Part shown: piece by piece, positions 3 through 33,277 of the stretch
Layout of the letters: each line of letters opens with the position of its first letter
How positions within the stretch are numbered: the first letter of the stretch is position 1
Assembly: GCF_032362555.1 (NCBI RefSeq)
Contig: NC_083531.1
Span: 3,162,001 to 3,226,000, forward strand
Direction of reading: 5' to 3'
Origin: Amyelois transitella
Lineage: Eukaryota > Arthropoda > Insecta > Lepidoptera > Pyralidae
DNA length: 64,000 nt
Notes under the pieces: generated by a model
What the model saw: only the letters and a program-made list of their open reading frames with translations
Told to the model about the DNA's origin: nothing
Databases searched by the model: none
Translations under genes and position numbers: made by a program

Positions 3-3000
3 ACATTCAATCATAAGTTTTTTGTTTTTCAAAATTTACCAATTAAAGGAAGTGGAATTTTAGGCCGTGATTTTTTAAATAGATGCAAAGCTCAATTAGA
101 CTTCAGTAAAAATACTTTGACATTATTTATTAATTCGAAAATTACTTTACCTTTAATAAATACATGTAATGTTATTTTTGAGATCCCAGCTAGAAGCGAG
201 TCAATACATTTTATACATACGGACATTAATGAAGATTGTGTCATATTATCTCAAGAAATAAAACATGGTATATTTTTAGCAAGTTCCATATGTTCACCAA
301 AAGATGGATTGATTCCTGTTAGAATACTTAATGTTACTGAAAATGATGTTCAACTCACAGAAATAAATCCAAAAATTGATAAAGTTAGTAACTATAATAT
401 TTGTGAATTTGAAAAGTCAACGACCGATTCAAATAGAGTGAAAAAACTTTTCTCATTAATGAAATTGCAACATTTAAATATTGAGGAACAAAAAACTATT
501 GAGAACATTTGCGCTAAATATTCAGATATATTTTACCTCCCTGGTGATAAATTAAGTACTACTGATGTATACACACATACTATTTCTGTCAAACCTAATA
601 CAAATCCAATCTTTTCAAAACAATATCGTTTGCCATACTCTCAAAAGGACGAAATTAAACGCCAAATTGATAAAATGTTAGAGGAAGGGATAATTGAACC
701 TAGCAAGAGCGATTGGTCTAGTCCAATACTGTTAGTACCTAAAAAATCAGATTCAACAGGAGACAAAAAATGGAGGCTTGTCGTAGATTATAGGAAATTT
801 AATAATCAGATTGAAGACGATAAATTCCCACTACCAGATATTACTGAAATTCTGGACTCGTTGTCAGGTAGCATTTATTTCACACATTTAGACTTGCATC
901 AAGGATACTATAATGTTAATTTAGATGAAAACAGTAGAAAATTTACAGCTTTCCATTCAGGACAGTATCAGATGACACGTATGCCAATGGGACTTAAAAC
1001 TAGCCCAAGTTCATTTTCCAGAATGATTACATTGGCAATGGCTGGTCTAAATTATGAAAAATGTCTAATTTATTTAGATGACTTAATTGTTTTTGGCCGT
1101 AATTTAACAATTCATAATAAAAATTTACAAGATGTTTTTGAAAGATTACGTCAGGTCAATTTAAAATTGAACCCAGTAAAATGCGATTTTCTTAAAAAAG
1201 AAATTTTGTATTTAGGTCATGTGATTTCTAATGAAGGTATAATGCCGGATCCTGCAAAAATATCTGCAGTACAAAATTATCCAGTTCCTACAAATTCAGA
1301 CGAAGTAAAAAGATTTGTAGCTTTCACGAATTACTATAGAAAATTCATACCAAAATTTGCAGAAATCGCATATCCTTTAAATAAATTAACTAGAAAAGGC
1401 GTACCATTTGAATGGAATACCGAAAGTCAAAACTCTTTTGAAAAACTAAAAGAACTACTAATAAGCCCACCTGTGTTACAGTATCCCGATTTTTCGGAAC
1501 AAAATAAATTTATAGTACAAACTGATGCTTCAAATAATGCTATAGGAGCAATTTTATCAAACAAAAATGGACGACCAATAGCTTATGCTAGTAGGAGCTT
1601 AAATAAAGGTGAAAAGAATTATCCAGTGATAGAAAAAGAATTGCTAGCAATAGTATGGGCTGTGAAGTATTTTCGTCCATATTTATATGGACGCCCATTT
1701 AAAATACTGACAGACCATAAACCACTAGTATACTTGTTCAATATGAGAGATCCTTCGAGTAGGCTCATGAAATTTAGAATCATATTAGAGGAATATAATT
1801 TTGAAGTAGAATATGTTAAAGGTTCTGAAAATGCAGCTGCAGATGCATTGTCTAGAATCACATTAAATGATTTAAAAGAAATGCACGAAAGTGTTATTAA
1901 TGTTATGACAAGAGCGGGCGCAAGAAAATTAAATAAACTAGATTCATCGGTAGATATGGATGCTTTAGACTTGAGGCCTGATCAACCAAAGGTCGTAAGT
2001 ACCCATATAAGACCGAAAGAATCAGTAGAATTAAAACTTATTGATATTAAGGGACTAAAACAATTTAAAAAAGAGGGAATTATCACAAAAGAAAATAAAA
2101 TATTATGCTATATTGAAAGTAAAAGAACAATTTATGTGAAATTTCTAGATTCTCAATCACAAATGACGCGAGGCGAATTTGTGAGAGATTTAGATAATTT
2201 TTGTAATTTATTAAAGTTAGAAGAAATATACATATTAAAGAGTAAAGATAATGAAATTTTTATAGAAAAATTATTAGATAAAATAAAAAACGATAAGAAT
2301 AGGTCCGGACCGCGTATATGTATTTTAAGTAATGTAAAAAGAATTGAGAATAAACATGATAGAAAAATAATTTTAAATGATTTTCATCTCTTGCCTAGCA
2401 GTGGCCATGCTGGTATGAGAAGAATGTCAAACAACATAAAGAAATATTATTTCTGGCCTGGTATTGATAAAGATGTTAGAGAATTTGTAAAACGTTGCGA
2501 CAGTTGTCAACGTCAAAAACATTCAATACCAAAGAAAGAACCAATGGAAATTACTAGTACAGCGCATACTGCATTTGAAAAAGTATTCTTAGATCTTGTT
2601 GGTCCTTTGGAAAGAGATAATGATAATTATTCTTATATACTAACGTGTCAATGCGAACTGACAAAATATGTAGAAGGTTATCCCTTAATTTCCAAAAAAG
2701 CTGATGAAGTAGCAAGATCGTTTGTTAATAATTTTATTCTCAGGTATGGTGTGCCAAAATGTATAGCTACAGATAGAGGGAAGGAGTTTTTATCAGAAAT
2801 TTTTCAAAAGGTATGTAAATTATTAAATATTAAACAACTCAACAGCCCACCATCACGAGTCCATAGGAGCTCTGGAAGTCACTCACAAACATTTGAATGC
2901 GTTTCTACGTATTCAAACAGAGAATCACCCGGAGATGTGGAGTAAGTGGATTCCTTTTTGGTGTTTCTCTTACAATACAGGAGTTCATACTGAAACAGAT

Positions 3001-3387
3001 TTCACCCCGTACGAGTTGGTGTTTGGTAAGAAATGTTCTCTCCCTAGTAATCTGACAAATGATGTAGAACCTCTTTATAATTATGAGAGCTATCCACATG
3101 AATTGAAATACCGTTTGCAACTTTCTCAAAAAGAGGCTAGAAATAATTTGTTAAGAAGTAAGATAAATAGAAAGTATGTGTATGACAAAAATATTAATCC
3201 TGTAAGCTATAAGGAAAATGATTTAATTTTAGTAAAAAATAATACACCTAGTAATAAATTAGATAATATATATTTAGGCCCTTATAAAGTTATTAAGGAC
3301 ATACCACCAAACGTAGAGATAATAAATAAGTATGGTAAAATAGACATTGTACATAAAAACCGTACAAAACCTTATTATAAAACGTAA
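3..3387 (+). pseudogene. Ty3/gypsy retrotransposon pol (protease end, RT, RNase H, integrase), frameshifted
   Basis: The frame is open from base 3 to 2945, so the gene enters from outside the window. The first residues contain ILGRDFL, the closing motif of the retropepsin domain. The reverse transcriptase carries YLDD (about 1071-1082). RNase H follows with QTDAS (about 1518) and ADALSR (about 1842). The integrase has an H-H-C-C zinc binding region (about 2395-2520, ending CDSCQRQK) and two of the three catalytic acids (FLDLVGP about 2590; ATDRGKEF about 2765). The third, glutamate-bearing block lies in another frame: a one-base-type frameshift between about 2838 and 2890 moves the frame to the one that stays open to the stop at 3387. 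The protein tail has the LGPYKV-type segment of gypsy integrases. No env ORF follows. The copy cannot make a full integrase without frame correction, so I call it a pseudogene. The family is clear; the clade is not. Confidence 0.9.
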
Positions 3388-3466
3388 AAAATAGATTATA
3401 TTTTATCAATTTGACTGTAAAAAAAAATATATTATATAAATTCATTTTTTTTTTCAATAAGTGCGG

Positions 3467-3603
3467 TGATGTGAGGTTAGACTAAGTACCTATTTAATCT
3501 TCTATTATGTTAATCTTTGTACCACCTATATAATTGTGTTATTCCTTCAAATATAGTAGTATTATTCGAGCATTCACTCGTTTCATTTACCTGACTACGT
3601 CAC
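3467..3603 (+). repeat. Candidate 3' LTR of the Ty3/gypsy element
   Basis: Downstream of pol lies an A/T-rich leader and then a segment that begins TGATGTGAGG and ends CTACGTCACA, giving TG...CA borders with short inverted similarity. It includes a TATATAA motif near 3527. At 137 bp it is short for an LTR. The matching 5' LTR would be left of the window, so the call cannot be confirmed here. Confidence 0.4.
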
Positions 3604-5100
3604 ACCCTTATAAAGTAACTAATTATTTTAAAAAGTTATTTTGTGATTTTGTGAAATTATTATTGACTGCAAGTAAGTATTACTTTATTTTTATTAAATC
3701 TTAAGTATTTTGGGGCTGATTTTAGGACGAAATTAATTAATTTTTTATTTTTACAGCTTTCACTATGGGTCGAGGGGTAGATTTGTCTCCAAGAAAAAAA
3801 TCTGAGGTTAAAACCCTTCTTTTGCACACAAGTCATTCTCAGAGGAAGATAGCAGAACTGGCTGGTGTTTCTAAGTCGGTAGTAAATAAAATAAAAATAA
3901 ATCTGGATCAAGATCAGCCACTTTTGCCCAAAAGAAAAGGCAAATGCGGAAGAAAACGGATTACGACACCACGGTCCGATAGGAAAATCAGGGATATGTG
4001 TTTGCAAAACAGGAAGAAAAGTGCTGGATTGTTAACCCAGATGGTACAGGAGTCTGGAATACAAGTTTCGAAGAGAACTGTACAGCGTAGGTTGGCAGAG
4101 GAAGGCCTGACCGGACATCGCCCAGCTAAAAAACCGCGACTGACAGAGGCGATGAAGAAGAAACGACTTGCTTGGGCTCGTGAACACCGTCTGATGAGTG
4201 TTGAAGACTGGAGCAAGGTCAGTTTTAATGTCAATTGATAATTTATATTAATATTATGGTATATTATCTAAAAAGATTTTCATATAAGTTATAAATATTT
4301 TTTTTCAGGTGTGTTTCTCAGACGAATCAACATTTGAGATTCTTGCCGACAAAAGCAACTTTGTCAGGCGGCGCCCAGGCGAGAAATTTCACCCTGACTG
4401 CATTGTGGAACGCGTTAAACACCCTGTTAAAATAATGGTATGGTCTGTCATAAGTGCTAAAGGGGTTGGGCGTCTCTACATTGTCCAGGGAACCATGAGA
4501 CAGGACCAATACAGGCAGGTCCTAGAAACTCGCTTGTTGCCGCAACTCCGGGAATGGTTCTCAGAGGGGGAGGAATTCATGTTCATGCATGACTCAGCAC
4601 CATGCCATAAAGCAAGGAGTGTAACAAAATTTTTAGCAGACCACAATATACCAGTTTTACCTTGGCCTGGCAATTCTCCAGACATGAACCCCATCGAAAA
4701 CTTATGGGAAATTACCAAGGCGGAAATTGCCAAGGAAGTGATAACCACCAAGGTAAAACTGATCGAAAAATTAATAAATGTGTGGCACCACAACCCTAAA
4801 ATAAAGGAAAGTGCCAAACAGTGCATAGAAAGTATGCCGAGGCGGATCGAAGCACTCATTCAGGCTAAAGGAAATGTGACAAAATATTAGCAATATCTCA
4901 TTGCCATTTTCGTAATACCTGCTAATATTTTCTAATTACCCAAAGACTGTTATTTTTTTGTTTAAACTACTTGTAAGATGTGTGTCTAATATTATTAAAT
5001 ATAATTATAACTCAAAACAACGTTTTTAATTAGTTATGGACCAATAAAGTGTAAAAAAACAATATTTTTCGACTGTCCCTATTAATTTGGCAACCCACTG
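3604..5100 (+). mobile_element. Tc1-like DNA transposon (5' end not seen)
   Basis: The 3' end is sharp: the sequence ends GGCAACCCACTG at 5100, followed by the TA at 5101-5102 expected as a Tc1 target site, and then directly by a piggyBac reading frame. The reverse complement of this end, beginning CAGTGGGTTGCC, is not found upstream as far as base 1. If the segment before 3604 is the gypsy LTR, that retrotransposon inserted into the Tc1 5' region, and the missing terminal repeat lies left of the window. A TATAAA box is at about 3608 and a 5' UTR intron is likely (GTAAGT at about 3672, acceptor ending TTTTTACAG at about 3757). Confidence 0.75.
3765..4890 (+). CDS. Tc1-family transposase, DD34E, two coding exons
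   Basis: Exon 1 is 3765-4217 and exon 2 is 4309-4890. The 91-bp intron starts GTCAGT and ends TTTTTTCAG, both exons keep phase 0, and the junction restores the family motif (WSK then VCFSDES). The joined product is 344 residues, the normal size for Tc1 transposases. The N-terminal part is a paired-like helix-turn-helix (QRKIAELAGVSKSVV) followed by a GRKR basic motif. The catalytic acids are in FSDES, MHDSAPCH and NPIENLWE, with 34 residues between the second D and the E. The enzyme would cut and paste its own element at TA sites in the nucleus. I see no stop or frameshift, so this copy may be functional, although its 5' terminal repeat is not in the window. A coding intron is unusual for Tc1 elements. 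Confidence 0.88.
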
Positions 5101-6237
5101 TATAGAGATAGATATTGCTCAATACTGGCAATGCTCTCATTTTCTGAAGTGCCCGTGAATGTAACTAATTTATCAAGATTATATAAAATCCAAATGATGA
5201 TTGACCACGCACGACAAAAATTTCAACACACATTGGTTCCCGGAGGCAAACTATGCATTGATGAAAGCATTGTGCCTTTCAAAGGTCGTCTGGTAATTAA
5301 ACAATATTTGCCAAAAAAGCGAAACAGATTTGGAATAAAACTTTTTGTTTTGTGTGATGTCACATCAGGGTTTATAATTGATTTCATTGTTTACTGTGGT
5401 TCACAAACACAAATAGAGCAGGTACCAAATTTAGGTATTACAGGATCAGTAGTCACTGAACTCGTACAAGGTTATTATGATAGTAATCGAGAGCTATATG
5501 TTGACAATTGGTATTCTAGTCCGCGACTTTTTCTTCATTTGAAACAAAGAGGCATTTGTGCATGCGGTACCGTCAAAAGTAATAGGAAACATATGCCAAA
5601 ATTCAAAAAACTTAAGCGTGGAGAAATAGAAGCATTTTCATCTCCTCCTCTTTTAGCTTTAAAATGGCAGGACAAAAAAGCTGTTACCATGCTGTCTACC
5701 ATGCATGATGACAAAATTGTTCCGTCAGACAATTTGGATCAATTTTCTGGTCTGCCTAAATTAAAACCGCAATGTGTAATAGATTACAGTAAAAATATGG
5801 GTTCGGTGGACACCGCTGACATGATGATGACTACCTTAAGTTGTATAAGGAAAACTAGGAAGTGGTATAAAAAATTAGGCTTCCACATCATCGATTTATT
5901 TATGCTTAATGCTTTTTATGTGTTCAGAGTCTTAAAAAATAACAAAAAACATAGTTTTGCAGATTTTCAATTAAATTTGATACGGCAACTTATTGAAAAA
6001 AATAAAAGATTTATTGCAAGTACTAGTCAAGCATTCACTTCTTCTACTCAGTCCAATCCTCCTCGCAGTCTACATATCGATGCTTTGGCACATTTTCCTG
6101 TTAAAATTCCCAGTGGCAAAAGTCAACGTTGTAAAGTATGCGCGACTAAGAATATAAGGTCACACACGCGGTATATGTGTAAAACGTGTAATGTTAATCT
6201 TTGTGTTGACACATGTGCTGTGGAATTCCATAGATAG
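5101..6237 (+). pseudogene. piggyBac-type transposase, 3' two thirds, cut by the Tc1 insertion
   Basis: The frame is open from the TA at the Tc1 border. The first residues (RDRYCSILAMLSFSE) belong to the piggyBac N-terminal core, so the real gene started further left and the ATG at 5131 is not a true start. All four acidic residues expected in piggyBac enzymes are present: CIDES, YVDNW and the pair in SVDTADM. The C-terminus is a Cys-rich finger (CKVC...CKTCNVNLC...H), which binds terminal repeats in this family. About 377 of roughly 580-600 residues remain and contain no internal stop. The missing N-terminal part is not seen anywhere upstream in this window. Confidence 0.88.
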
Positions 6238-6983: not shown

Positions 6984-7460
6984 TTATGTACCTACTACTA
7001 CTTGTTACCCTTGCTTGTTACTGATTGTCATTTTTTTTTGTTTTTAGCTTATGACTGCGTAATTTTAATTACAGTTGTTGTAATTCACGAGTGCCTTTGC
7101 GTGTAGGTTTCGTGTATGTACACATCACGTAGGTACCTACAAATTGCGCTACGTGTGTGCCTAACGAAACGAACAGGTTGCGCGCGGACCTCATTCATAG
7201 GTAGGTACAAAACAGTTCAACACACAATCAAATGAAAAGTGCGCTCGTGAATTGCAACTACTATACCTACTTATTATACCTAAATACGTAAATCATTGCA
7301 TTTGATCTAATAGGTAATCAAAATTTATTAGGTATTTTATAGATGCTGAGGAATAAGTGTTAATTAATGTGATGTTAAGAATTAATAATGGTAAGCAAAA
7401 AAAAACAATTGTGATTCAGAGATTTATTATAGTTTGATTTATAAAAGGTAAGGAAAGAGT
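6984..7460. other. Non-coding stretch, nothing recognised
   Basis: AT-rich DNA with short GTAGGTA-type patches. I see no ORF of note, terminal repeat or RNA gene. Confidence 0.5.
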
Positions 7461-10271: not shown

Positions 10272-11516
10272 ATGGACTCAGTGGCAGAATATTGTACTCC
10301 ATCTCGTAATCGTATAAAATTATGGAGTACAGCTACAATGAAAATGAAGATTCAGTTAGGCCCTAAACAAACAGTTTTTTCTTATGATGAAGAGAAAGAG
10401 TTATGCAATTATATATTAGATATGGAGAGCAGGCTTTACGGGCTAACTACAAAAGATCTTAGAGGCTTAGTCTACAGACTAGCAATTAAAAATAATAAAC
10501 CACATCCATTTAATGATTTAAAAAAAGAAGCTGGTAAAGACTGGGTACAAAGCTTTTTAAAGAGGAATCCCGAATTGTCTATAAGACAACCTGAAAGCAC
10601 CTCAGCTGCGCGTGCTGCCGGATTCAACAAACAGGCCGTTGATAAGTTTTTCACTTTCTTAGGAAATGTTTATGATGAACATCAATTGACACCTGACAGA
10701 ATCTATAATTGTGACGAAACAGGAATTTCCGTTGTGCCCATGACGAAGTCAAAAGTAATAGCTAAAAAAGGTCGAAAGCAAGTTGGGGCCATAACTTCCG
10801 CAGACAGAGGTACGACCATCACAGTCGAAATATGTTTTAGTGCCAGTGGCCAATATATGCCACCCATGATGGTATTTCCTAGAAAAAGGATGGATCCGCA
10901 GCTTATACTAAATGCTGCATCTGGAGCTTGAGGAGTTTGCAGTGATTCTGGCTGGATGACAGCAGAGTTATTTCTGGAATGGTTTAAAAAGTTTATCGAG
11001 TTTAGTGGAGCCACAGTCGAACGACCTGTTCTGGTGCTGTTGGATGGGCACAGTACCCATACTCAAAATATTGATCTCATAAATGAAGCTCGATCACACG
11101 GAGTCACCATTTTATGTTTCCCCCCACATACAACTCACCGCCTTCAGGTCGCTGATGTTGCTTACATGAGACCCTTAAGCACATATTATGATCAACAAAT
11201 AACAGTTTGGCTTCGCAGCAATCCAGGAATGGTCGTCACAGTTCAACAAATTGCTGAAATTTTTGGGAAAGCTTTCATACGGGCGTCTTCTATGTCAACG
11301 GCTGTAAATGGGTTTAAAAAATGTGGAATTTGGTCATATGATTCATCAGTTTTCTCAGAAAATGACTTTGCTGCCTCTTTGACGACGAATATTCCGCAGA
11401 TCGAGAGAGAGCCGACTACTGAAGTAACAACTGTAACTACAACGACTGAAACTCCAACATCTAATACCGCATTAACAGCTGCAGCAGCACCGTTATTTAA
11501 TTCCCAGATTAAATAA
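10272..11516 (+). pseudogene. Tigger/jerky-like (pogo group) transposase with one stop codon
   Basis: One frame runs from ATG 10272 to the TAA at 11514 with a single TGA at 10929-10931. Blocks in order: CENP-B-like DNA-binding part (WVQSFLKRNPELSIRQPE), catalytic NCDETG, LLDGHSTH and PPHTTHRLQVADV (the family's final D follows the QPL-like stretch). The C-terminus is Thr-rich. The N-terminal psq-type helix-turn-helix is missing or unrecognisable. The gene lies inside mariner M1. Without the stop the frame would give about 414 residues. Confidence 0.8.
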
Positions 11517-11705: not shown

Positions 11706-12160
11706 CCAACATCCACAACGAACATTATTGGTCGTATACCAATCCACATGTTTTTACGCGGTCATCTTTCCAGCACCAGTGGCGGATAAATGTGTGGGCT
11801 AAAATAGTCGGAGATGTTGTCGTTGGGCTATATTTTCTGCCTTACAGTCTGAACAGCGGAAATTATTTAAATTTCCTAGAAAATGACTTGAATTAGGAAT
11901 TGAAGGTTAATGCCAGTAAGAAACGAGTACGTTGATCTCATGATGGAAAACAACCTAATATTCCAACATGATGGCGCTCCAGCTCACTTATCTCGTTATG
12001 TGCGCAGCCACCTCAATGCCCTGTTCCCGCAATGGATTGGACGAGGAGGACGTATCGCATGGCCTCTGCGTTGCCCAGATCACACACCGCTTGACTTTTT
12101 TTTGTAGGGATACATTAAAAATAAGGTGGCATATATGCGTCGGATTTATTTATTACGCAC
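11706..12160 (+). pseudogene. DUF4817-type transposase, segment 2 (copy D1)
   Basis: Frameshifted reading gives HNEHYWSYTNPHVF, then FQHDGAPAHLSRYVRSHL (second catalytic D) and RCPDHTPLDFFL (third D). The sequence is broken after LDFFL by the 5.2-kb element and continues for a short stretch after 17347. Confidence 0.75.
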
Positions 12161-12537
12161 TAGGGTGGAGCGAAAAAACTTTTTTTTTATATTTGTTTTG
12201 GAATACCTGTAAAAAGTTGATGTTATTGCTCACAAATATACACACAAAATTTTATTTGCCACATGATAAATTTAGAGGTGCCCCCGACGTCCTGAAAACA
12301 CTGGTCAACACTGGTTTTGCCACACGAACTTTGATAGCTAATTTTGTTTTATCAGTCTACCCTCATTATTAAATCACAGCTGTGATATGTCTATTAGCCT
12401 CATATTTGTTGTGATACGGTAATACTCATAACTAGTACTACGGCAGTAAATTAACAAAAACGCTTACAAGTAAATCCTTATAAAAATATTTGTTGTTGAA
12501 TTTGAACCCTTTTTTGTGATTTATTAACCCTGTGAAT
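12161..12537 (+). promoter_or_regulatory. 5' terminal region of the two-ORF element
   Basis: This holds the left terminal repeat, GGTGCCCC (near 12277), a block ACTGGTCAACACTGG...TGCCACACG (12300-12327) that recurs inverted at 14341-14390, and a TATAAAAAT motif near 12479, about 60 bases before the ORF1 start. Confidence 0.5.
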
Positions 12538-14187
12538 ATGTCGAGAAAGTGTAATAATGATCCTAACTCTTTTTGTTATGTCTGCGGAGAACTAACATTC
12601 AAAAAACAACGACGAAATTTTACGAATCTTGTGTTGGAGTGTTATCAACAATGTTTTGGTTTTTCTGTCGCCCATCAAGACAAATCCTGGGCCCCTCATG
12701 TCTGTTGCATAACGTGTGTGAAAAATTTAACTGACTGGAAGAAAGGTGCACGACCTATGCCGTTTGCTGTACCCATGATATGGACTGAACAGCGAGATCA
12801 CGTTTCAGATTGCTATTTTTGTCTCACAGACATAAAAGGTATAAATTACAAGAAAAAAACCACAGTTATTTACCCTAACTTATCTTCGGCTATAAGACCA
12901 GTCTCTCATTGTAAAAAATTGCCAGAACTAATACCAGTTGCAACTACTTCTGTTGAGAACAATTCACAACCGTCCACTTCAAGTGAATGTGTTGACGGGG
13001 ATGATGACTTTGAGTTAAAAGGAATTGTAAACGAGCCACATTTGATAACTCAAGGAGACCTAAATGATTTGGTTCGGGATTTAAATTTGTCAAAAAAGCA
13101 GTCAGAACTATTAGGATCACGTCTAAAAGAATGGAATTTGCTACATCATAATACAAAAGTTAGCTATTTTCGAAACCGTGATCAACACTTCAGAACGTAT
13201 TTTTCTCAGGATGGAGATTTGGTGTTTTGCAATAACGTAAATGAGATTATGAAAATGTTGGACATAAATTTTGATCTCTCTCAGTGGCGTTTATTCATTG
13301 ATTCTTCGAAAGCAAGTCTAAAAGCAGTGTTATTGCATAATGGAAATAAGTTTCCGTCTGTACCTCTGGCCCATGCTGCAAATATGAAAGAAACTTATGA
13401 AAATATGAAACTTTTACTTGAAAAAATAAATTACAGTACATATTCCTTCAAAATCTGCGGTGATCTTAAAGTTGTTGCACTATTACTTGGACTTCAGCTG
13501 GGTTATACAAAGTTTTGCTGCTTTTTATGTGAATGGGATAGCCGAGACAGAACTAATCACTATATAAAAAAAACATGGCCTACGCGTGCATCGTTAATTC
13601 CTGGGCAAAAAAACGTAAAGTATTTACCCCTTGTACAGCCAAATAATGTGCTTCTACCACCATTGCATATCAAATTAGGATTAATAAAAAATTTTGTGAA
13701 GGCAATGGATCGCAATGGGAGTGGATTTTTGTATCTAAAAGAAAAATTCCCTAAAATAAGTGATGCAAAGATAAAAGAGGGTATTTTTGTTGGCCCTCAA
13801 ATTAGGGAGTTAATAAAAGATTCAAGATTTGAAGAAAAATTAAGCGATTTAGAAACATCTGCATGGAAGGCTTTTAAAAATGTTGTTGCAAATTTTTTGG
13901 GTAACCACAAGAGTGACAGCTACAGAGAGTTGGTTAGCGAGCTATTATTGTCATATCAAGCATTGGGTTGCAACATGTCACTTAAGATCCATTTCTTAGA
14001 CTCGCACCTGGATTTTTTTCCTGACAATTTAGGGGCTGTCAGCGACGAGCACGGTGAGAGGTTCCATCAGGACATTTCTAATATGGAAAAGCGGTACCAG
14101 GGCAAATGGAGCCCAAATATGTTAGCAGATTACTGCTGGACAATTAAAAGGGACCAACCAGAAGCTAAATATTCAAGAAAATCTTAG
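12538..14187 (+). CDS. ORF1 of the two-ORF element: uncharacterised zinc-binding protein (549 aa)
   Basis: I chose ATG 12538 because upstream there is only a GTG. The frame is intact. The N-terminus has CxxC pairs (CYVCGE about residue 13; CCITC about 57; CYFC about 96) suggesting a zinc-binding fold. The middle has FIDSSKASLKAVLLHN (about 253), then CGDLK (about 306) and a CCFLCEWDSRD block (about 323). Near the end is DEHGERFHQDI (about 503). The order D, D, Cys block, E resembles an RNase H fold with an inserted zinc motif, as in several cut-and-paste transposases, but this is my inference. From memory, proteins of this type are widespread and unnamed in arthropods and other animals. It may be the transposase or a partner of ORF2. 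Confidence 0.75.
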   Translation: MSRKCNNDPNSFCYVCGELTFKKQRRNFTNLVLECYQQCFGFSVAHQDKSWAPHVCCITCVKNLTDWKKGARPMPFAVPMIWTEQRDHVSDCYFCLTDIKGINYKKKTTVIYPNLSSAIRPVSHCKKLPELIPVATTSVENNSQPSTSSECVDGDDDFELKGIVNEPHLITQGDLNDLVRDLNLSKKQSELLGSRLKEWNLLHHNTKVSYFRNRDQHFRTYFSQDGDLVFCNNVNEIMKMLDINFDLSQWRLFIDSSKASLKAVLLHNGNKFPSVPLAHAANMKETYENMKLLLEKINYSTYSFKICGDLKVVALLLGLQLGYTKFCCFLCEWDSRDRTNHYIKKTWPTRASLIPGQKNVKYLPLVQPNNVLLPPLHIKLGLIKNFVKAMDRNGSGFLYLKEKFPKISDAKIKEGIFVGPQIRELIKDSRFEEKLSDLETSAWKAFKNVVANFLGNHKSDSYRELVSELLLSYQALGCNMSLKIHFLDSHLDFFPDNLGAVSDEHGERFHQDISNMEKRYQGKWSPNMLADYCWTIKRDQPEAKYSRKS

Positions 14188-14776
14188 ATTATTAAGTCAT
14201 TTATAAAAAAAAATAACTTTTGATTTACGAGATCTGTGTTTTTCCTTAATATTTTAAATTACTCAATAGAATAAAATCCTTGTCTAGCAAATTTTTTTAA
14301 ATGTTTATTTTTTCTTACAATCACCAATTAAAGTAAAAATTATCAAAAAAGTCCGTGTGGCACGACAAAGTTAAAATTTTGTTGACCAGTGAAATTAGAG
14401 AAAATCACAAAATTTTGTCTATAGACACCAAAGCCCAATATTGTCAAATTAACGCTTAAATATAATCTGTGTGTCTTCCCGTTAGCAACAGTTTAACCTT
14501 GAATAGTGCGCGAATAGTTGAGGGCGTGGGGAAGCGGGAGGGGTAATTTCACCGCACTTGTCTGTCGTTGTTTGGACGCCATTAAGTGTGCGCGACAGTG
14601 CGCGTGTTATTGTATTCTACTTGTTAGAAAAATTGATTTCAAACACTGCCGGCAAGAAAATAAGACACATGTAAGTTATATTTTTAATTACTCGTTTACA
14701 GATTAACACTTTAAGTCGTATAATTAAATATTTTCAATGTAATTTATACCTATTATTTTCTTTTTATTACAGTAAA
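14188..14776 (+). promoter_or_regulatory. Inter-ORF region with promoter and 5' UTR intron for ORF2
   Basis: After ORF1 comes AT-rich DNA, then an inverted copy (14341-14390) of a block near the left end. A GC-richer segment (14510-14610) follows, then a GTAAGT donor at 14671 and an acceptor ending TTTTTATTACAG at 14772, just before TAAAATG. This suggests ORF2 has its own promoter and a ~102-bp leader intron. Confidence 0.5.
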
Positions 14777-16996
14777 ATGTCGCAAGTCAAAACGCGAAAT
14801 ACGACATGTTGTCCTGTGTTTGGTTTACCGGAGAAGTTACCATTGTCTCAATTACCGACTTATAATGCTGTAATGAAGAATTACTTATTTATTAAATATG
14901 AATTAAAGCCTGACAAAACAACAAAAGAACCGACAGTTCATGATATATCCGAAAGATTGACTACGGAAATTTTAGATATATGGCGTAAAGCATCGCTTCC
15001 TACTGTCAGCTTTAAGAGAGTTCTTAAACTTATTCGAACTTACCATGACAAATATAGAGGATTACTAAAACCTTATCAAGGCCGTAAAATGAATAAGAAA
15101 TATCAACAGAAGATAGCTGAATTTGTAACTGAGTCCCAAAGGTTATTTGATGTTTGCAGTTGCAAATGTAAACTTATCTCAGAGTGTACTTGCTCAAAAG
15201 ATAACCGTGTTCCCAGGGAAGAAGTGTCTTTTTTACTTGATCAAAGAACAACAAGAAAAATGATGATAGGCGGTGTAGATTTGGTTGCGACTGAAAAAAA
15301 TATAAAAAAATTCAAAAGACATGAAAAAGAATTACTACGTAAGAAAGAAATAGTGGATACTAACCAACCGTCTTGTTCTCGTTCTTTACCTGATAACTTA
15401 ACGATCGAAAGCGCCAGTTCAAGCAATAATAGCGTAGCTTCTAGTCCTTATCAATCGCCTAAACAAACAGCTGCTCCGCCAACAAAGAAAAAGAGATTAA
15501 ATTTACCATCATTAGCCCTCGCCTGCGATCGTACGGGGGTCTCTGATAGAGCAGCTGCTATTATAGCTTCTTCAGTGTTAAAAGATGTTGGAATTATTAC
15601 ATCAAAGGATCCAAGTGCTGTTATTGATCGTTCAAAGTTACGACGTGAAAGAACGAAAGTCAGATCAGCTTTATACGATGCAGATCGCAATAAAAGTATA
15701 CGCGGTATTTATTTTGATGGCAGAAAAGATAAGACTTTGGTTAATATTCAGAAGGAAGGCAAATTTTATAGAAAAAGAGTAATAGAAGATCATTATGTGA
15801 TTTTATCAGAACCAGGAAGTGATTATTTCGGGCATGTTACGTGTGAGTTGGGAACTGCTAGAGGTATTGAAAGTAGCATAATAAACCATTTAAGAACAAA
15901 ATCGGTGGAATTGGATAAAATAATTGTTGTTGGTTGCGATGGTACAGTCGTGAATACAGGTTTCAAAGGAGGTGTTGTTCGTTTTATGGAAGAAGAGCTT
16001 AACAAACCATTACAATGGTTTGTCTGCCAGTTACATTCAAATGAGTTACCATTGCGACATCTTTTATTACATTTGGATGGAAAAACTACAGGGCCTAAAT
16101 GCTTTTCAGGTCCTATTGGATCCGAATTACAAAAATGTGAATCAATGCCAATTGTTCAATTTACCACCATTCCCTCCATATTACCCGAAGTCACTAGAAA
16201 TGAGTTGAGCACTGACCAAAAATATCTATACGATGTGATGACAGCTATCAGTACTGGCAGTTTTTCCCTTAATTTAGCTAATATTGCACCTGGACCTCTT
16301 AACCATTCTAGATGGCTTACAACAGCAAATAGAATCTTAAGATTATATGCTACCAAAACAGACCCCGAAGAAAACTTAGTGATATTAGCCACGTTCGTAA
16401 TGAGAGTTTATGGTCCAATGTGGTTCACAATAAAATGTAATCCCTCATGTACAAACGGAGCTAAGCATCTGTGGCAAACTATTGCCCTTTCTCGGTATTT
16501 GAATGCACCTTTGAAGAAAATCCTAGATAAGGTAATCCAACGAAATGGATATTTTGGTCATCCAGAAAACATTCTTATTGCTATGCTTGGAGACAACAGA
16601 GAAATTATACGTAAACTAGCATATCAACGAATTTTAAAAGCAAGAGCAGAGAAAACTCTAAGGCTTCGAACATTTAAAGTGCCTTCTTTAAATTTCGATG
16701 CTAAAGATTACACCGACCTAATTACGTGGCAAGACTGTAAGATAACTGAGCCACCTCTGACTTCCAATTTATCTGATGAAGCCTTGAAAGAGATTGTTAA
16801 AAGCGGTTTGACTACATGTCAGGATATAAAAGATTTTCCATGCCACACCCAAGCCGTAGAGCGCTGTATCAAATTGGTGACAGAAGCTTCAAGTGCAGTT
16901 TGTGGAGAAAATAAACGAGACGGTTTCATAAGAGCAAGACTATTATCACGTCGGCAAATGCCTAATTTTGAAACAAAAAACCAATTTAATAATTGA
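14777..16996 (+). CDS. ORF2 of the two-ORF element: hAT-like candidate transposase (739 aa)
   Basis: The frame is intact from ATG 14777. The N-terminal third contains a helix-rich region with a Cys cluster (CSCKCKLISECTC, about residues 127-140) and DQRTTRKMMIGG. A Ser-rich linker and a KKKR basic motif (about 236) follow. The C-terminal half has IYFDGRKD (D about 313), VVGCDGTVVN (D about 388), FVCQLHSNELPLRHL (C-x2-H about 416) and HTQAVERC (E about 693). A D, D, CxxH, distant E order is the signature of hAT enzymes, which fits the 8-bp target duplication. The rest of the protein does not match the classic hAT dimerisation region that I know. I propose it as the transposase; ORF1 remains unexplained. 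Confidence 0.72.
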   Translation: MSQVKTRNTTCCPVFGLPEKLPLSQLPTYNAVMKNYLFIKYELKPDKTTKEPTVHDISERLTTEILDIWRKASLPTVSFKRVLKLIRTYHDKYRGLLKPYQGRKMNKKYQQKIAEFVTESQRLFDVCSCKCKLISECTCSKDNRVPREEVSFLLDQRTTRKMMIGGVDLVATEKNIKKFKRHEKELLRKKEIVDTNQPSCSRSLPDNLTIESASSSNNSVASSPYQSPKQTAAPPTKKKRLNLPSLALACDRTGVSDRAAAIIASSVLKDVGIITSKDPSAVIDRSKLRRERTKVRSALYDADRNKSIRGIYFDGRKDKTLVNIQKEGKFYRKRVIEDHYVILSEPGSDYFGHVTCELGTARGIESSIINHLRTKSVELDKIIVVGCDGTVVNTGFKGGVVRFMEEELNKPLQWFVCQLHSNELPLRHLLLHLDGKTTGPKCFSGPIGSELQKCESMPIVQFTTIPSILPEVTRNELSTDQKYLYDVMTAISTGSFSLNLANIAPGPLNHSRWLTTANRILRLYATKTDPEENLVILATFVMRVYGPMWFTIKCNPSCTNGAKHLWQTIALSRYLNAPLKKILDKVIQRNGYFGHPENILIAMLGDNREIIRKLAYQRILKARAEKTLRLRTFKVPSLNFDAKDYTDLITWQDCKITEPPLTSNLSDEALKEIVKSGLTTCQDIKDFPCHTQAVERCIKLVTEASSAVCGENKRDGFIRARLLSRRQMPNFETKNQFNN

Positions 16997-17339
16997 CTTC
17001 TTTCTGATTTTTTCATTGTTTTCTAGTATATATTTTTTAATTTTTCTTGATAAATAAACATAAAAATAACTAATCAGGCTTTTATTTAACTCATTACTAT
17101 GTAGTTTGTTTTATAATAGATAAGAAATTTAGAGAAATACTATAATTAGAAATTAAAACAAAAATATTAAAAATTTTGAATTTTTCTTATTTTCAATTGG
17201 GTTGGGGCACCTCAAAACATCAAGACAAGTAAACAATATTTTGTATGCTTAATTAACAGTTTAAAAGGCAACTTTTTATCGCTATTCCATTTAAAAAAAA
17301 TAAAATTTTTTTTTTTTCATACATTATCACTCCACCCTA
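16997..17339 (+). other. 3' terminal region of the two-ORF element
   Basis: AT-rich 3' end with polyadenylation-like AATAAA (near 17053), then GGGGCACCTC (about 17206) as the counterpart of the left GGTGCCCC, a poly-T run, and the right terminal repeat ending CTCCACCCTA at 17339. Confidence 0.6.
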
Positions 17340-17347
17340 TTACGCAC

Positions 17348-22867: not shown

Positions 22868-23682
22868 CGAGGGGCGTTCAATGTATTCTCGGTATTGAGG
22901 TGATATACTAATGTTAAGGGTAATTAAATTATCTCACTAAGTAATAATACTCTTTGAGAGTATACATAAAAAAAAATATTTAATTGTCACCGTTAGTATT
23001 CAAGATATCATTGCGAGAAGACAATTTAGATGACTGATTCGACAACGATGAAAAAAATCGAGCATCGCGCTGTGATAAAATTCCTCACAAAACAAGGAAA
23101 AACTCAAAAAGTAATTCACGAAGAAATGGTGGCTGTTTACCAAGATTCTGCGCCTTCATTATCTACAATTCAGAAGTGGTCAAGTGAATTTAAACGGGGT
23201 AGAGAGAGCATTGAAGACGATCCCCGTGCCGGTGGGCCGGTTAGTGCCGCTACTGAAGAAAACGTCAAATTAGTCGAGAAACTTGTACTCGAAGATGCCC
23301 GTGTAAGAGTGAAAATATTATCAGAAAGGACTAAGCTATCCGTAGGTACTATTCACACTATCCTTCATGAGCGTCTGAATTTGTCAAAGGTCAGTGCAAG
23401 ATGGGTGCCGCGAATGCTCACAGCGCTTCAGAAACAAGTGCGAGTTGACTGTTGCAAGGAGTTTTTGGAGCTTTGTGGTGAAAATCCACAAAGTATTTTC
23501 GATCGGATTGTTACTGGTGATGAAACGTGGGTTCATCACTATGACCCTGAGAGCAAGCAAGAGTCTATGCAGTGGCATAGAAAAGGAACAGACCCACCGA
23601 AGAAGTTCAAAGTCACCCCGTCCGCAGGAAAGCTCATGGCCACAGTGTTTTGGGATTCCAAGGGAATCTTGCTAATCGAGTA
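22868..23682 (+). pseudogene. Mariner R1, truncated transposase
   Basis: It begins with the terminal repeat CGAGGGGCGTTCAATGTATT after TA. The transposase frame starts at 23030 and matches the intact copy R2 (36269-35202, opposite strand) up to GILLIEY, where the pogo element P enters at 23683. The DNA-binding domain and the first catalytic block (VTGDETWVHHYD) are kept; the second and third aspartates are lost. Confidence 0.9.
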
Positions 23683-23691
23683 CCGTAGAAT

Positions 23692-24117
23692 GGGGTTACT
23701 TTGATTCACAGGGAGACTTTGATAAAATCTTTAATTTTTTTTAAAATTGAAATTGCGTGCTTTCTGAACGCACCCGCGTGAAACTTTTTTTTGTGTTGGC
23801 AGCACTGTTTGTCACTCTTTTCATTGCCCAAGTGCCACACGGTGCACACGGTTCGAAGTCGGAGATTTTTATTAAAAACCGTAAGTTTTGCATTTGAACT
23901 ATTTTATAAGTTTAAATAACTTTCAAGGTCCCAAAATAAATATAAATATAGCATAAAGAAATATTAGTTTATGTTATTTTGTGTTAAATCAACTTGAGAA
24001 ATAAGTTTTGATTCGCAGCCTAACCTTGAAATCTTTATTCAAATGGCGACATTTTTAAAGCGGGGTGTCATTGATCACCACCATGGGGCTACTTTGATCA
24101 CTGATCAATCTCACCCC
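23692..24117. repeat. Left subterminal motif array of element P
   Basis: Copies of GGGGT(K)(W)C(W)TTGATCA at 23692-23707 and 24062-24077 and of GGGGCTACTTTGATCA at 24085-24100, plus the inverted TGATCAATCTCACCCC at 24102-24117. These are candidate transposase binding sites. A GTAAGT donor near 23881 and an acceptor TTTTTTCTTATAG just before 24200 suggest a leader intron. Confidence 0.65.
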
Positions 24118-24200
24118 AAGACCTAGCGATTTTCCTTTTTTTGGTGATTTGCTGACGGTGCAACGTCGGTGGTTGCATTATAAGTTTTTTTTCTTATAGG

Positions 24201-26072
24201 ATGATGCCGAGAACCTATCAGAAACGTTTAGGCGCTCGAGGCTATAAAAATTATACAGAAGAATTACTTGATCGAGCTATAACAGCTGTCACAGAAGGTC
24301 GTATGACCTTGCGGGCGGCTTCTGAAAAGTTTAATATACCGTATGGCACGATTTTTAATAAATATCATGGAAAGTATATAAAGAAACCAGGAGCACAGCC
24401 AGTATTTTCTAAAACTGAAGAGGAAACTATTCTGAAATCGTGTGCTAAATGCGCTGATTGGGGATATCCGCTTACAACTTTAGATTTGCGCATGTTTGCT
24501 AAAATTCTATTAGATTCACAAGGCAGAACAGTCTCCAAATTTCGAAATAATATGCCTGGACAAGACTGGGCATACTCACTGCTCAACCCGCACAAAAACC
24601 AGTATTCTCAACGGGTGTCTACTAATATCAAACGAGCTAGAGCGGCAGTATCCCGTGAAAGTATTGAGGAATATTTCAAAAACCTTGAAAATACTTTGAA
24701 AGAAGTACCTGACTCAAATATTTTCAATTATGATGAGTCGAATCTTAGTGACGATCCAGGTAAAAAGATAGGGATATTTCGCAGAGGTGTCAAGTATCCA
24801 GAAAAGGCGATGAACTTTTCCAAAAGTGCCACATCTATAATGGTTTGTGGTTCTGCTGATGGTGTGCTATTACCACCCTACATAATTTACAAAAGCTTAC
24901 ACCTTTACGATACCTGGAAGGAGAGGGCACCGCGTGGCCCGCCATGCTGCAATCAGCCTTGTTGCTCAGGTGGATCACGATTTAACCGCACAGTTAGTGG
25001 TTGGTTCGACGCACCATCATTCCGGGACTGGTTTGTAAGTTGCTTTATGCCTCATGCAAAAAGGCTGCCTGGTCGTAAAGTTCTTATTGGAGACAATCTT
25101 TCGTCTCATTTAGATGAGCAAGTCATAAAACTTTGCAGCGAAAATGACATTGATTTTGTGTGTTTGGTGCCACATTCGACGCACCTAGGTCAACCTCTTG
25201 ATGTGGCGTTTTTCCGCCCAATGAAGACAGCATGGCGGCAAGTTTTGACCAATTGGAAGATGCAAAATGCTAAGTTGTCATCTGTTCCAAAAGATACATT
25301 CCCTCATCTGCTGACAAAAGCTCTCAACAAAATGGATGAAGTCCAACCAAAACCAAATTCAGAATATAAAGACATAACTTCTGGGATTAAAAGGAACATG
25401 ATGAGCGGATTTCGTGCTGCTGGTATTTATCCTTTTAATAAACAAAAAGTTCTTGATCGTCTACCAAAAGAAGATATTGGAGGGCAGGAAATTGAAAGTG
25501 CTTTAACCAATTTTTTAAAGGAATCAAGATATGGAAGTTCTTCGAATCAATCTACAAGGAAAAAAAGGCGTTTAGATGTAGCTCCCGGCAAAAGTATTGC
25601 AACCCGAGAGGAAACTATACAATCTACTGATCCCGAACAAAATGAGATTGCAGCATCTGATATTCAAGAAACAGAAATTCAAGCATTGGTTGGTCCTAGT
25701 ACATCTCAAGGCGAAGCTCCACGTTTAGACGACGAAGAAATCCCGGATAGACAAATATATGAAAGTGACCCTGATGAGGATGTAGTAGAAGCAGAAGATG
25801 AGAAGACAGAGTGCAGTTTAGGAAGATTCGTATTAGCGAAATTCTACACGAGACGTGGCAAAAAGACCTACAAATATGTTTGTCAAATTGTAGAAACTGA
25901 ACCTTTGCTTGTCGAGGGTTTCAAATCGGTTGGAACTAAAAGAAAGTTTAAAAGAGTTCCAGATGATATATCTGAAATTGATTACACCGATATTATATCT
26001 TATTTACCAAAGCCTGTTAAAAAAGACGACCTTATAATTTTTCCTTTTGATATTAATATTCAAGAATTGTAG
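24201..26072 (+). CDS. Pogo/Tigger-like transposase (623 aa), intact
   Basis: Two in-frame ATGs start the ORF, directly after a likely 3' splice site. Residues 10-55 form a psq-type helix-turn-helix (LRAASEKFNIPYGTIFNKYHG). Residues 100-150 resemble the CENP-B-like second DNA-binding part (WAYSLLNPHKNQYSQRV). The catalytic domain has FNYDESNL (about 175), LIGDNLSSH (about 294) and VPHSTHLGQPLDVAFF (about 325), the DDD pattern of pogo enzymes. A Cys cluster (PPCCNQPCCSGG, about 248) is inserted between the first two aspartates. The last 150 residues are acidic (DPDEDVVEAEDE) and then basic, and are longer than in most Tigger proteins. The frame has no defects. Expected role: cut-and-paste transposition of element P at TA sites. 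Confidence 0.88.
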   Translation: MMPRTYQKRLGARGYKNYTEELLDRAITAVTEGRMTLRAASEKFNIPYGTIFNKYHGKYIKKPGAQPVFSKTEEETILKSCAKCADWGYPLTTLDLRMFAKILLDSQGRTVSKFRNNMPGQDWAYSLLNPHKNQYSQRVSTNIKRARAAVSRESIEEYFKNLENTLKEVPDSNIFNYDESNLSDDPGKKIGIFRRGVKYPEKAMNFSKSATSIMVCGSADGVLLPPYIIYKSLHLYDTWKERAPRGPPCCNQPCCSGGSRFNRTVSGWFDAPSFRDWFVSCFMPHAKRLPGRKVLIGDNLSSHLDEQVIKLCSENDIDFVCLVPHSTHLGQPLDVAFFRPMKTAWRQVLTNWKMQNAKLSSVPKDTFPHLLTKALNKMDEVQPKPNSEYKDITSGIKRNMMSGFRAAGIYPFNKQKVLDRLPKEDIGGQEIESALTNFLKESRYGSSSNQSTRKKRRLDVAPGKSIATREETIQSTDPEQNEIAASDIQETEIQALVGPSTSQGEAPRLDDEEIPDRQIYESDPDEDVVEAEDEKTECSLGRFVLAKFYTRRGKKTYKYVCQIVETEPLLVEGFKSVGTKRKFKRVPDDISEIDYTDIISYLPKPVKKDDLIIFPFDINIQEL

Positions 26073-29066: not shown

Positions 29067-30751
29067 TAAGCTGAAGTGACGCGCCCCACCTTCGTATTTA
29101 CGCACACAAGCAAATATCAAATATGGACGCAATACACCTAAACATCAATCGTTCATTTGCCGGTTAGGCTCAAACGTAGCAGCACGCATCGTTCGATCTC
29201 AAAAGTACCGTCAGCATGTCGACAAAAAAACATCTTCGAAGCCAGGTAAATAAAATATAAAAAAACTTATTTGATTTTTAACATGTAAAGTTACGTCAGA
29301 CTTTTTTATTTATTTTACCAAATTATATGAGACTGAATGTTTTTTTTGCTATATACTGAATTGAAAAATAAATGCTATTGATTTTTTTACAGGCAAAAGA
29401 AATTATTGCTAAAGTATACCACCGAATGAAATTTGAAGCGGAAAATGGAGTGGAAAAACTTACTGATGCTAGGTGGCGAACTGCCCAAGCCGTTGGTGTT
29501 AGTGAATCCACGATTACGCGAATTTTAAAAGAAGAAAAACAAGCTGGAACATCAAAGGATGTATCGCCGAAAATTTTTAAATCTCCCTCAAAACCAAAAA
29601 GAGCGCGTCCTAAGTCAAAGCTTGATGATTTTGATATACTCGTAGGTGTGCTTCGAAGAACAATAGCTTCATTCCATACAGAATTTAATGAAGTACCAAC
29701 ATTAAGAAAGCTTAAACAGATATTAATAGAAAGAATTGGCTTTACTGGGTGTATAGAAACACTGCGCACTATTTTGAAGGAATCAGGCTACGAGTGGTCA
29801 AAAATAGATGACAACCGTAAAGCTCTAGTCGAAAAGCACGACATACAAATGCTGCGGTTCCAATATTTAAGGCGATTAAAAAATTACCGTGATGATGGCC
29901 GATATGTCGTTTTCACGGATGAAAGTTACGTTCACACAACACATATTCAGAACATGTGCTGGAAACTAGCGAAAGGAGTGTCACCAGTACAAAAAAAAAT
30001 ATCTAAAGGTTTGCGGGTCATTATTGTCCACGCTGGTAGGTGTGAAGGATTTGTCCCAAATGCTAGCTTAGTGTATAAAGCAAATTCAACAAGTGGAAAT
30101 TATCACGACAACATGAACCTGAATAATTATAAAAAGTGGCTTAGCACACAATTGCTGCCCAATCTCCCAGAAAACTCTGTCATCGTTGTGGATAACGCTT
30201 CTTACCACAATGCTTTACTAGAAAAAGCACCTAACTCGAACTCAAACAAGAATGAAATGCAAACATGGCTTGCCGAAAAAAATATTCCGTTTGACGAAAC
30301 GATGAAAAAAATACAACTTTACGATTTAATTTTGAAAAACAAAGATAAATTCAAAAGATTTGTTATCGATGAACTAGTTGAATCGAAAGGGTTTGAAATT
30401 CTACGATTACCCCCTTACCAACCGGAACTTAATCCCATAGAAAAAATATGGGGGATATTAAAAAACTACGTCGCTAGTAAAAATGTTGCTCAAAATTTAA
30501 CATCCATTATGGGCGCTTTTAGTGTCACGCGGATTTGCTCACGCACGCGGGATTGGCCCGCATGCGTAGCATCCGCAAAGAACAATTTCATATAGGTATC
30601 TATTGTAAAGCGTGATAAACGCACGCGGGACGCGGGGCGCTGTGCGGGGCGTCACCCCGGTGCGGGGTATCCGCATGCGTAAGCGCTGCCTACAACTTCA
30701 GTGCCCATTTTAGAGTCGAGCGGGGCGCACGCGCCGTATTGTACTACCGAA

Positions 30752-33277
30752 ATGAAAATCGATACAGAACGAGTAATCATTGAAGTTCATCTGCGGCCCG
30801 TTTTGTGGGATAAACGCAATGAATTATACAAAAACAGGGACGCGAGGGAGGCTGCATGGAGAGATATTTTGAAGGAATTGGCACCTAACTACGAAAATTT
30901 GAGCGAAGAGGAAAGAAAAGTGGCGGGTATGTGTTTGGTTCATTATTTTATTTATACAAGCATCATTACTTTATTAATATAAGCATAATTATTTAATTCA
31001 CAAATAACATCAAAAACCTAAAACCTTTTGAGTTTAGTTAATTAATTATATATCGGTGTTGCCAGGAGACTTTTCCTTCATTGATAAAGTAATCTGCAAA
31101 TATATCTCTGATATTACTTGCCGACGTATTACTACTTTCAGTCTGCTGCCTGGGTAGTGGTCCCGTAAAACCATTTGTGACAAATGTATGGCTGACCATG
31201 TAGCCATCCCGTTTCCTTATGAAATTGTGAAGTACACATGCCGTCTTGACTATTAATTGTGCTAGATCTAACTTGACAGTCATGGATCTGTGAAATATTC
31301 TAAATTTATTTGACATAATTCCAAAAGTGCATTCTATGTACCTTCTAGCTCTGGACAGACGGTAATTAAATATTTTCTTTTTGTAAGGTAAATTATCACG
31401 AGCATAAGGCCGCATCACATGTGATGATAAACCAAATGCCTCATCTCCCACTATCACGAACGGCAACTTTGCTCTTACACTAGATGGATAAGCTACTTCG
31501 GGGCAAATAATAGGCAACTCTTGCGGGTCAGGGATACCCAACGTGTTACTTTCCAGTTTCGTATACAATTGACTCCTTCTAAAGATGGTTGAATCGGCGT
31601 TGCTTCCACTGGTACCGACATTAATATATGTAAAATTATAATCAGCATCACACATTGCGAGGAGCACTACAGAATAATATTTCTTATAATTAAAATATAG
31701 TGATCCACTGTGCGGCGGCCGAATCACTCTTATATGTTTTCCATCAATAGCACCCAAGCAATTAGGAAAATTTGTATATGTGAGAAATCCCTCTGCGATT
31801 TCTTTCCATTTGATCCCATTAAGCTGTGGAATACATTCAGACTTTAGTTCAATCCATATTATGTAACAAACTTGTCTTACTATTTCGCTAATTGTTGCAA
31901 TTCCAATCATATAGGAATAGTGTAGATCAGTGAATGTATTACCAGTTGCCAAATATCTGAAAACAAAAACAATATATTAATAATATGATAACATAATATA
32001 TTAATAATGCTGACATCAGACATAAGACAGCAGCATTTCCCGATTCAATCCGGTGTTTTTCCAAAAATCCTTAAATGAAGTTCTAATTATTTTTGTAAAA
32101 AATGAATTATTTCCATTCAGTAAAATTTGCCATCATCAATATTATGGGTACTTTTCCTTCAACTGCGGCCTTATTTTTCCACTCTGTATAGGTATATATA
32201 TATTGCTTGATTTATCTAATTCTTCATGAGACAGTGTAAAGTTGACAACATGTGTGAATTAAGGAGGGCCTTTAATCGAATGCAGTTAATTTTCCAACTA
32301 ATATCAGATTTGTACACACGGCCACAGATCAAGCTTCCCAAAACCAGTATAAATAGGACTCATGCGTTGTTTATTATCGTAGACGACTCGCCGCCCGGCG
32401 AGGCCCTAGCAAGTTCCGTTTATTGGTACTGGTTTTGGGTAACTTGATCTGAAACTGTGTGTACTTTTGCCACTTACTTATTATATTTTGTCATTTCAGA
32501 CAAGAAAATACAACAACGCTGGCGAACAGCAAGGGACACTTACCAGAAAGACAAGATATCTGAAAAAAATCAGCCATCCGGCTCTGGGAGTAAGAAGAAG
32601 AAGAAATATTCTTACTATGACATTTTGACTTTCTTAGACAGTACAACGGAAACTGTTGGAGAAGAGTCACTCTGCGAAGAAATGTCTGAACAAAGTAATT
32701 TAGAAACACCTAATGAGTCCACGCAACCAGGTACTTCACGTCAAGAAAGTTCTCAACTAACATCAAAACAAAAACAAGTAAAATCTAAAAAGCAAGCACC
32801 ATCTGAATTTGAGGCACAGTTATTAGAATGCTTAAAGTCTAATCAACTGGAGCTAGAAAGTGAGGATTTGGCTTTCTTTCAGTCTCTGCAGCCTTCATTA
32901 AAAAGATTCACTAGATATCAAAAACTAATGTTCAGAACAAAAGTGTTAATATAGTTATGGAAATGGAAAGTCAAACACAACCTGCATACTACAGTCCCAT
33001 ACCTACAACAAGTTCTAGTGCTTTTACTGAGCTTGACAGTTTCTCACCGATAAATCAAGATTACCAAACCAATAATAGTATAATCCAGGATACTTCGAGT
33101 CTTAACGACAATGCTATTAGTTCTGCTGCAGTGAATGACAATGAAACTCTTATTTCTACTGAAAGCGGCTTGTTTAATATCACATCTTATGACGTAATTT
33201 ATACCCCAGCAACAACATCATCTACAGGCGAAAGAAATGTCAACGCTCAGGATACAAATTTACAAAGAAATGAATGA
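30752..33277 (+). CDS. MADF-BESS accessory protein of Harbinger H1 (frameshift near its end)
   Basis: Exon 1 is 30752-30926: MADF first half (VIIEVHLRPVLWDKRN, REAAWRDILKELA) with donor GTATGT. Exon 2 starts at 32500 after TCATTTCAG; the join in phase gives VAD-KKIQQRWRTARDTY, completing MADF. A Lys/Ser-rich linker and a BESS-like motif (DLAFFQSLQPSLKRFTRYQK, near 32868) follow. The frame stops at 32954 just after the BESS motif, but a neighbouring frame runs from 32957 to 33277 with a Ser/Thr/Asn-rich tail like that of the H2 protein, so a one-base loss near 32948 probably removed the tail. The role by analogy is nuclear import and end binding for the transposase. The CpG-rich 30600-30740 is the likely promoter. 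Confidence 0.8.

Follow-up and report, generated by a model that had tools for sequence, protein, structure and literature searches.

A 5.2-kb unit in the genome of Amyelois transitella consists of a probable Chapaev3-type transposon nested within a hAT-like transposon

Three described groups of DNA transposons come closest to the sequences considered here; one of them, KDZ, is taken up below with the outer element. The first is Chapaev3, with the elements Merrow, Garfield and Conan, which belongs to the CMC/CMCT group. The description of Chapaev3 in PMC4079192 gives CAC..GTG ends, TWA duplications lying between A and T, and a protein with C(2)C, LH and H(4)H motifs; according to the same source, one such element, Garfield_BM, is 2,289 bp long and encodes 556 aa. 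The second group is hAT, for whose member Hermes an 8-bp target preference of nTnnnnAn is described (PMC10368747).

The stretch of DNA analysed here (the window) comprises 64,000 nucleotides (G000:C27:3162001-3226000) of a genome of 327 Mb. In the first-pass annotation, a 5.2-kb unit within it was taken for a single transposon whose two intact large ORFs, ORF1 and ORF2, go together as partners within a superfamily branch. The exact 8-bp duplications, the matching outer ends and the two open frames on which this was based are all present (Table 1). The unit nevertheless combines two distinct transposons, each of a known kind, of which one recently inserted into the other. Recognising this prevents a spurious two-protein transposon from entering annotation. 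It also offers likely homes for two families that Pfam does not recognise (no match at E <= 1 for either ORF1 or ORF2), the former as a putative Chapaev3-type and the latter as a putative hAT-like transposase.

Table 1. Features of the outer and nested elements, in window positions.
Feature	Position	Strand	Remark
Left 8-bp target-site duplication TTACGCAC, outer element	12153..12160	.	exact match to 17340-17347
Outer hAT-like element	12161..17339	+	5,179 bp; TAGGGTGGAG ends; five ~99.8% copies (L009-L013)
Left terminal inverted repeat TAGGGTGGAG, outer element	12161..12170	+	
Left 3-bp duplication AAA, nested element	12296..12298	.	empty site in 5/5 copies
Nested Chapaev3-type element	12299..14391	+	2,093 bp; CACTGGTCAAC ends; empty site; holds ORF1
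Left terminal inverted repeat CACTGGTCAACA, nested element	12299..12310	+	
ORF1, putative Chapaev3-type (CMC) transposase of nested element	12538..14187	+	549 aa from ATG
Right terminal inverted repeat TGTTGACCAGTG, nested element	14380..14391	+	
Right 3-bp duplication AAA, nested element	14392..14394	.	
ORF2, putative hAT-like transposase of outer element	14777..16996	+	739 aa; conserved residues in alignment A1; hAT profile match
Right terminal inverted repeat CTCCACCCTA, outer element	17330..17339	+	reverse complement of TAGGGTGGAG
Right 8-bp target-site duplication TTACGCAC, outer element	17340..17347	.	

The empty site and the proposed order of insertion

Five other copies of the outer element (L009-L013) are about 99.8% identical to that of the window, and all five are without its positions 147-2239, numbered from 12153. 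At this point each of them reads uninterrupted GTCCTGAAAATTAGAG. In the window the sequence runs from GTCCTGAAAA into CACTGGTCAAC...GTTGACCAGTG and on to AAATTAGAG, with AAA on both sides. The two arrangements are the empty and the occupied state of one site, with a 3-bp duplication of AAA. Around ORF1 there is a second pair of ends, CACTGGTCAAC and GTTGACCAGTG, with its own AAA duplication, which the first-pass annotation had overlooked. Because all five of the ~3.1-kb copies lack ORF1 and have an empty site, ORF1 is assigned to a separate element of 2,093 bp, and its partnership with ORF2 in one transposon is refuted.

Once the nested piece and one AAA are subtracted, the outer element of the window is 3,083 bp long, the same as L010 and L011; the remaining copies measure 3,084 (L009), 3,082 (L012) and 3,055 bp (L013). 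The window copy differs by 2, 6, 6 and 5 substitutions from L009, L010, L011 and L012, respectively; against L013 there are 10 substitutions as well as 30 gap positions. In L009-L011 the ORF2 frame runs uninterrupted for 739 aa, and it is broken in both L012 and L013.

With a probability of roughly 0.93, the locus holds a hAT-like and a Chapaev3-type element that were nested as follows, with each protein serving its own ends. First, a hAT-like cut-and-paste transposon of 3.1 kb, carrying ORF2 as its one large gene, would have landed here and given rise to the 8-bp duplication. A 2,093-bp Chapaev3-type cut-and-paste transposon with a single gene, ORF1, would then have entered the non-coding 5' region of the first, creating the 3-bp duplication and leaving ORF2 intact. 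ORF1 would be expected to act only on CACTGGTCAAC ends and ORF2 only on TAGGGTGGAG ends. The nesting itself, the empty site, the two sets of ends with their duplications and the independent spread of the two elements are directly shown by the sequences. We infer the restriction of each protein to its own ends, as well as the activity of both proteins as working DDE transposases and the choice of their catalytic residues.

The outer element and its relation to hAT

Searching the genome with ORF2 gave at least 63 matches, and 20 loci (L009-L028) were taken from the longer ones, which together with the window make 21 ORF2-type copies. All 21 have TAGGGTG ends, and exact 8-bp duplications flank 20 of them, so chance can be excluded as the source of the outer ends. 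The exception is L009, which has a 9-bp repeat ACAAGATAC (4029-4037 and 7122-7130 of that locus) and no exact 8-bp one, and which was left out of the duplication tally. This repeat and the broken ORF2 frames of L012 and L013 count against the preferred reading. Among the 20 exact duplications, position 2 is always T and position 7 always A, as in the nTnnnnAn described for Hermes (PMC10368747); moreover, 18 have a purine (A or G) at position 3, and all 20 have a pyrimidine (C or T) at position 6. As a control, the T..A frame was moved along the 21 joined sites at offsets of 1 to 30 bases, and it then fitted at most 6 of them. The 35-bp left end of the outer element is found at six genomic places (control, 0), namely the window and the five copies without ORF1, and no second composite of both elements was seen among these six.

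Five of the 21 copies (the window, L014, L015, L016 and L022) represent the ORF2 family in an alignment (A1), in which D314, D388, C417xxH420 and E695 are invariant, as is the pair E695-R696. For comparison with hAT, ten proteins with long open frames were taken from 150 scored matches to PF05699 in the same genome. Aligned against these with hhalign, the ORF2 family gave a probability of 94%, an E-value of 1.5e-7 (which covers a single comparison, the shuffles being the better guide) and a score of 69.8 over ORF2 residues 291-429. By comparison, 100 column shuffles scored at most 22.2, the reversed alignment 23.5 and the ORF2 profile against the ORF1 family 17.2. The second D and the CxxH are paired between the two profiles, and the first D lies within the aligned stretch, facing a conserved D. 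The hAT-like D, D, CxxH order read from the sequence in the first-pass annotation is upheld, being invariant in A1 and matched to hAT by profile.

The ORF2 profile was also compared with four subsets of five hAT proteins, with probabilities of 4.9, 95.5, 90.4 and 89.1%, the lowest being that of L069-L073. In a global profile alignment the probability was 42%, and E695 was left unpaired with the ER motif of hAT; by eye, E695-R696 resembles what we take to be the C-terminal ER motif of hAT. The Pfam hAT dimerisation domain (PF05699), which has many matches in other proteins of the same genome, was found neither in ORF2 (E <= 1) nor in four relatives (E <= 10), and the Pfam BED zinc finger was likewise absent from ORF2 and these four relatives. 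The missing Pfam domains, the one weak subset and the global alignment also count against the preferred reading. Like hAT, then, the outer element has short inverted ends, Hermes-like target sites and a D-D-CxxH core that can be aligned by profile; unlike hAT, it encodes a protein in which Pfam recognises neither a dimerisation domain nor a BED finger, and whose C-terminal E does not align. From its sequence, ORF2 represents a divergent hAT-like family, and since the core matches by profile but the hAT dimerisation domain and BED finger were not found, we label it hAT-like rather than file it as a member of hAT. More tentatively, it is possible, if doubtful, that ORF2 stands for a deep and undescribed sister lineage of hAT, with TAGGGTG ends, sites leaning towards nTRnnYAn, the hAT-like D-D-CxxH core, and N- and C-terminal domains of its own. 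The ORF2 family might be of use as an outgroup in studies of hAT evolution.

The lack of recognisable hAT end domains could also point away from hAT, to P or KDZ as the group of the outer element. P elements make 8-bp duplications too. So do Zisupton and Dileera of the KDZ (Kyakuja-Dileera-Zisupton) group, as described in PMC12730594. An origin in either group is nonetheless unlikely, since the D-D-CxxH core aligns by profile with hAT proteins and all 20 exact duplications fit nTnnnnAn. Additionally, ORF2 had no match at E <= 1 in a Pfam library that includes KDZ and P models. A genome search with the KDZ domain, PF18758, returned 0 matches, but its controls were equally silent.

The ORF2 type occurs in several families in the genome, one of which, of 749 aa, has at least nine matching places. 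These nine have near-equal search scores, and the family is about 24-26% identical to ORF2. Seven of its loci (L022-L028, on contigs C2, C3, C7, C14, C20, C16 and C17 of G000) all carry TAGGGTGCTTCAAA ends and 8-bp duplications, and the whole 749-aa frame is present in six of them, with 600 aa in L026. Judged by these sequences, the family is perhaps young and active. Six further ORF2-type fragments all cover residues 500-737 (C4:716142, C20:4178055, C32:8515641, C16:5510813, C32:8216343 and C25:3018475 of G000). Four of the six have an identical tally of stops (3 TGA, 2 TAG, 1 TAA), and a single truncated derivative, dispersed in several copies, may account for all six.

The nested element as a probable Chapaev3-type transposon

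In a genome search with ORF1, 79 matches were listed, of which 17, the window included, are full-length at ~100% and three near-full; a second family follows at ~58% and others at ~50%. Both ends of the other 16 full-length copies were retrieved and checked. Every one of them has the CACTGGTCAAC ends of the nested element with a 3-bp duplication, and the CAC..GTG form of the ends is common to these 16 and the window copy. The duplicated triplets are TAA (seven copies), TTA (four), and TAG, ATA, CTA, TCA and TAT (one each), such that TWA accounts for 11 of 16. In 15 copies the duplication is flanked by A and T, and in one by A and G. At the window the duplication is AAA, likewise between A and T but not TWA, and together with the five other copies that depart from TWA this is a further point against the preferred reading. 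The 35-bp left end of the nested element was found at 21 genomic places (control, 0). Six whole copies were compared with the window over 2,093 bp; four are identical to it, and the other two show 1 and 2 differences, respectively. With five of the seven compared copies (the window included) identical over this length, the element has been mobile until very recently and may be active even now.

Seven relatives from related families (L062-L068) were also retrieved, at 48-58% identity. Four of them (L063, L064, L065 and L067) have ends beginning CACTA or CACAGG and TAA between A and T, and in L062 the triplet is ATA, again with A and T outside. L066 yielded no ends. For L068 none were detected by script; inspected by eye, its right end departs from GTG by one base, with TAAT following.

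When ORF1 was aligned with four relatives that have long open frames (alignment A2), D255, D309, C328xxC331, L376-H377, H485x4H490 and E504/E507 were invariant in all five proteins. This bears out the order of D, D, Cys block and E that had been pointed out for ORF1. The C(2)C, LH and H(4)H motifs are located between D309 and E504/E507, and the order of conserved residues matches that described for the CMC group (PMC12730594). The nested element thus resembles the Chapaev3 elements of PMC4079192 in its CAC..GTG ends, its mostly TWA duplications between A and T, the three motifs of ORF1, and a length of ~2.1-2.3 kb with a transposase of ~550 aa. It differs from them in the AAA of the window copy and the non-TWA duplications of five others. 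By this signature match the nested element is classed as Chapaev3-type, with Merrow, Garfield and Conan compared by description.

Membership of the CMC group outside Chapaev3, for example as an EnSpm-type transposon, is very unlikely. CAC..GTG ends, 3-bp duplications, and C(2)C and H(3-4)H motifs are possible there too, as described in PMC12730594, and the five duplications that are not TWA would fit. However, TWA in 11 of 16 copies, flanking A and T in 15 of 16 and the LH motif of ORF1 argue for Chapaev3, as does the similarity in size to Garfield_BM (PMC4079192).

The N terminus of this group may hold a DNA-binding finger. Sub-threshold matches to zf-AD were obtained at the N terminus of all three relatives scanned (L065, L062 and L068; E 0.0012, 0.0028 and 0.19), with none in ORF1 itself at E <= 1, which hints at an N-terminal zinc-finger region.

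Separate dispersal and the surroundings of the unit

Co-occurrence of the two genes within a few kb, which the first-pass annotation had proposed to look for, proved to be rare among the matches listed for this genome. Clustering of the two match tables with gaps of up to 5 kb gave at least 73 ORF1 loci and at least 50 ORF2 loci. Among these loci, two pairs, the window (593 bp) and one on C19 (685 bp), have the genes within 1 kb; of the other pairs listed, one on C20 is 6.7 kb apart and the remainder at least 14 kb. The C19 locus (L061) was considered as a second example of the pairing and rejected, as the two pieces there are distinct and other sequence intervenes. An ORF1-type element (~1935-3966), 99.4% identical to L068, is followed after a spacer of ~450 bp by a truncated ORF2-type piece (4415-5599), 91% identical to L015. 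The translation of the spacer was read by eye as a piggyBac relic, and a clean 3-bp duplication around the ORF1 copy was not seen.

The first-pass annotation had itself named separate elements with their own ends as the contrary case, and this is what the 16 other full-length ORF1 copies display. A genuine two-gene transposon of 5.2 kb, from which the 3.1-kb copies derive by deletion of ORF1, is hardly credible. In its favour, both ORFs are intact, in the same direction and between one pair of ends, and decayed ORF1-type and truncated ORF2-type pieces do neighbour each other on C19. Against it, these pieces are separate, none of the 20 ORF2-bearing loci (L009-L028) contains ORF1, and what all five copies lack coincides exactly with the CACTGGTCAAC-ended unit and a single 3-bp repeat, a unit that stands with its own duplications at 16 other full-length sites.

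The suggestion that one element may encode two nuclease-fold proteins holds for the proteins and fails for the element. Given the D, D, CxxH order of ORF2 and the D, D, Cys block, E order of ORF1, both are probably RNase H-fold (DDE) transposases, of different transposons. Single-sequence structure models of the two had mean pLDDT values of 36.2 and 34.3, too low for use. No relatives of the ORFs were confirmed in viral contigs or, for ORF2, in phages and (by profile) in genome contigs, and nothing meaningful came from sequence comparison with the PDB or from PHROGs.

To the left of the unit, an older transposon had been claimed as the site of insertion. By eye the flank does have the look of a mariner-type DDE relic, but a 62-aa piece of it has no Pfam match at E <= 1.

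Elsewhere in the window there are two more long ORFs, of 364 aa (41483-42577, +) and 233 aa (53293-53994, -), with no Pfam match at E <= 0.001. The window is also crowded with mobile-element proteins recognised by Pfam (117-2945, 5131-6237, 10272-11516, 23030-26072, 29372-31952 and 35202-36269). Their kinds include reverse transcriptase with integrase, piggyBac-like DDE_Tnp_1_7, Tc5-like DNA-binding and DDE_1, Mos1-type HTH with Transposase_1, DDE_3 and DDE_Tnp_4.
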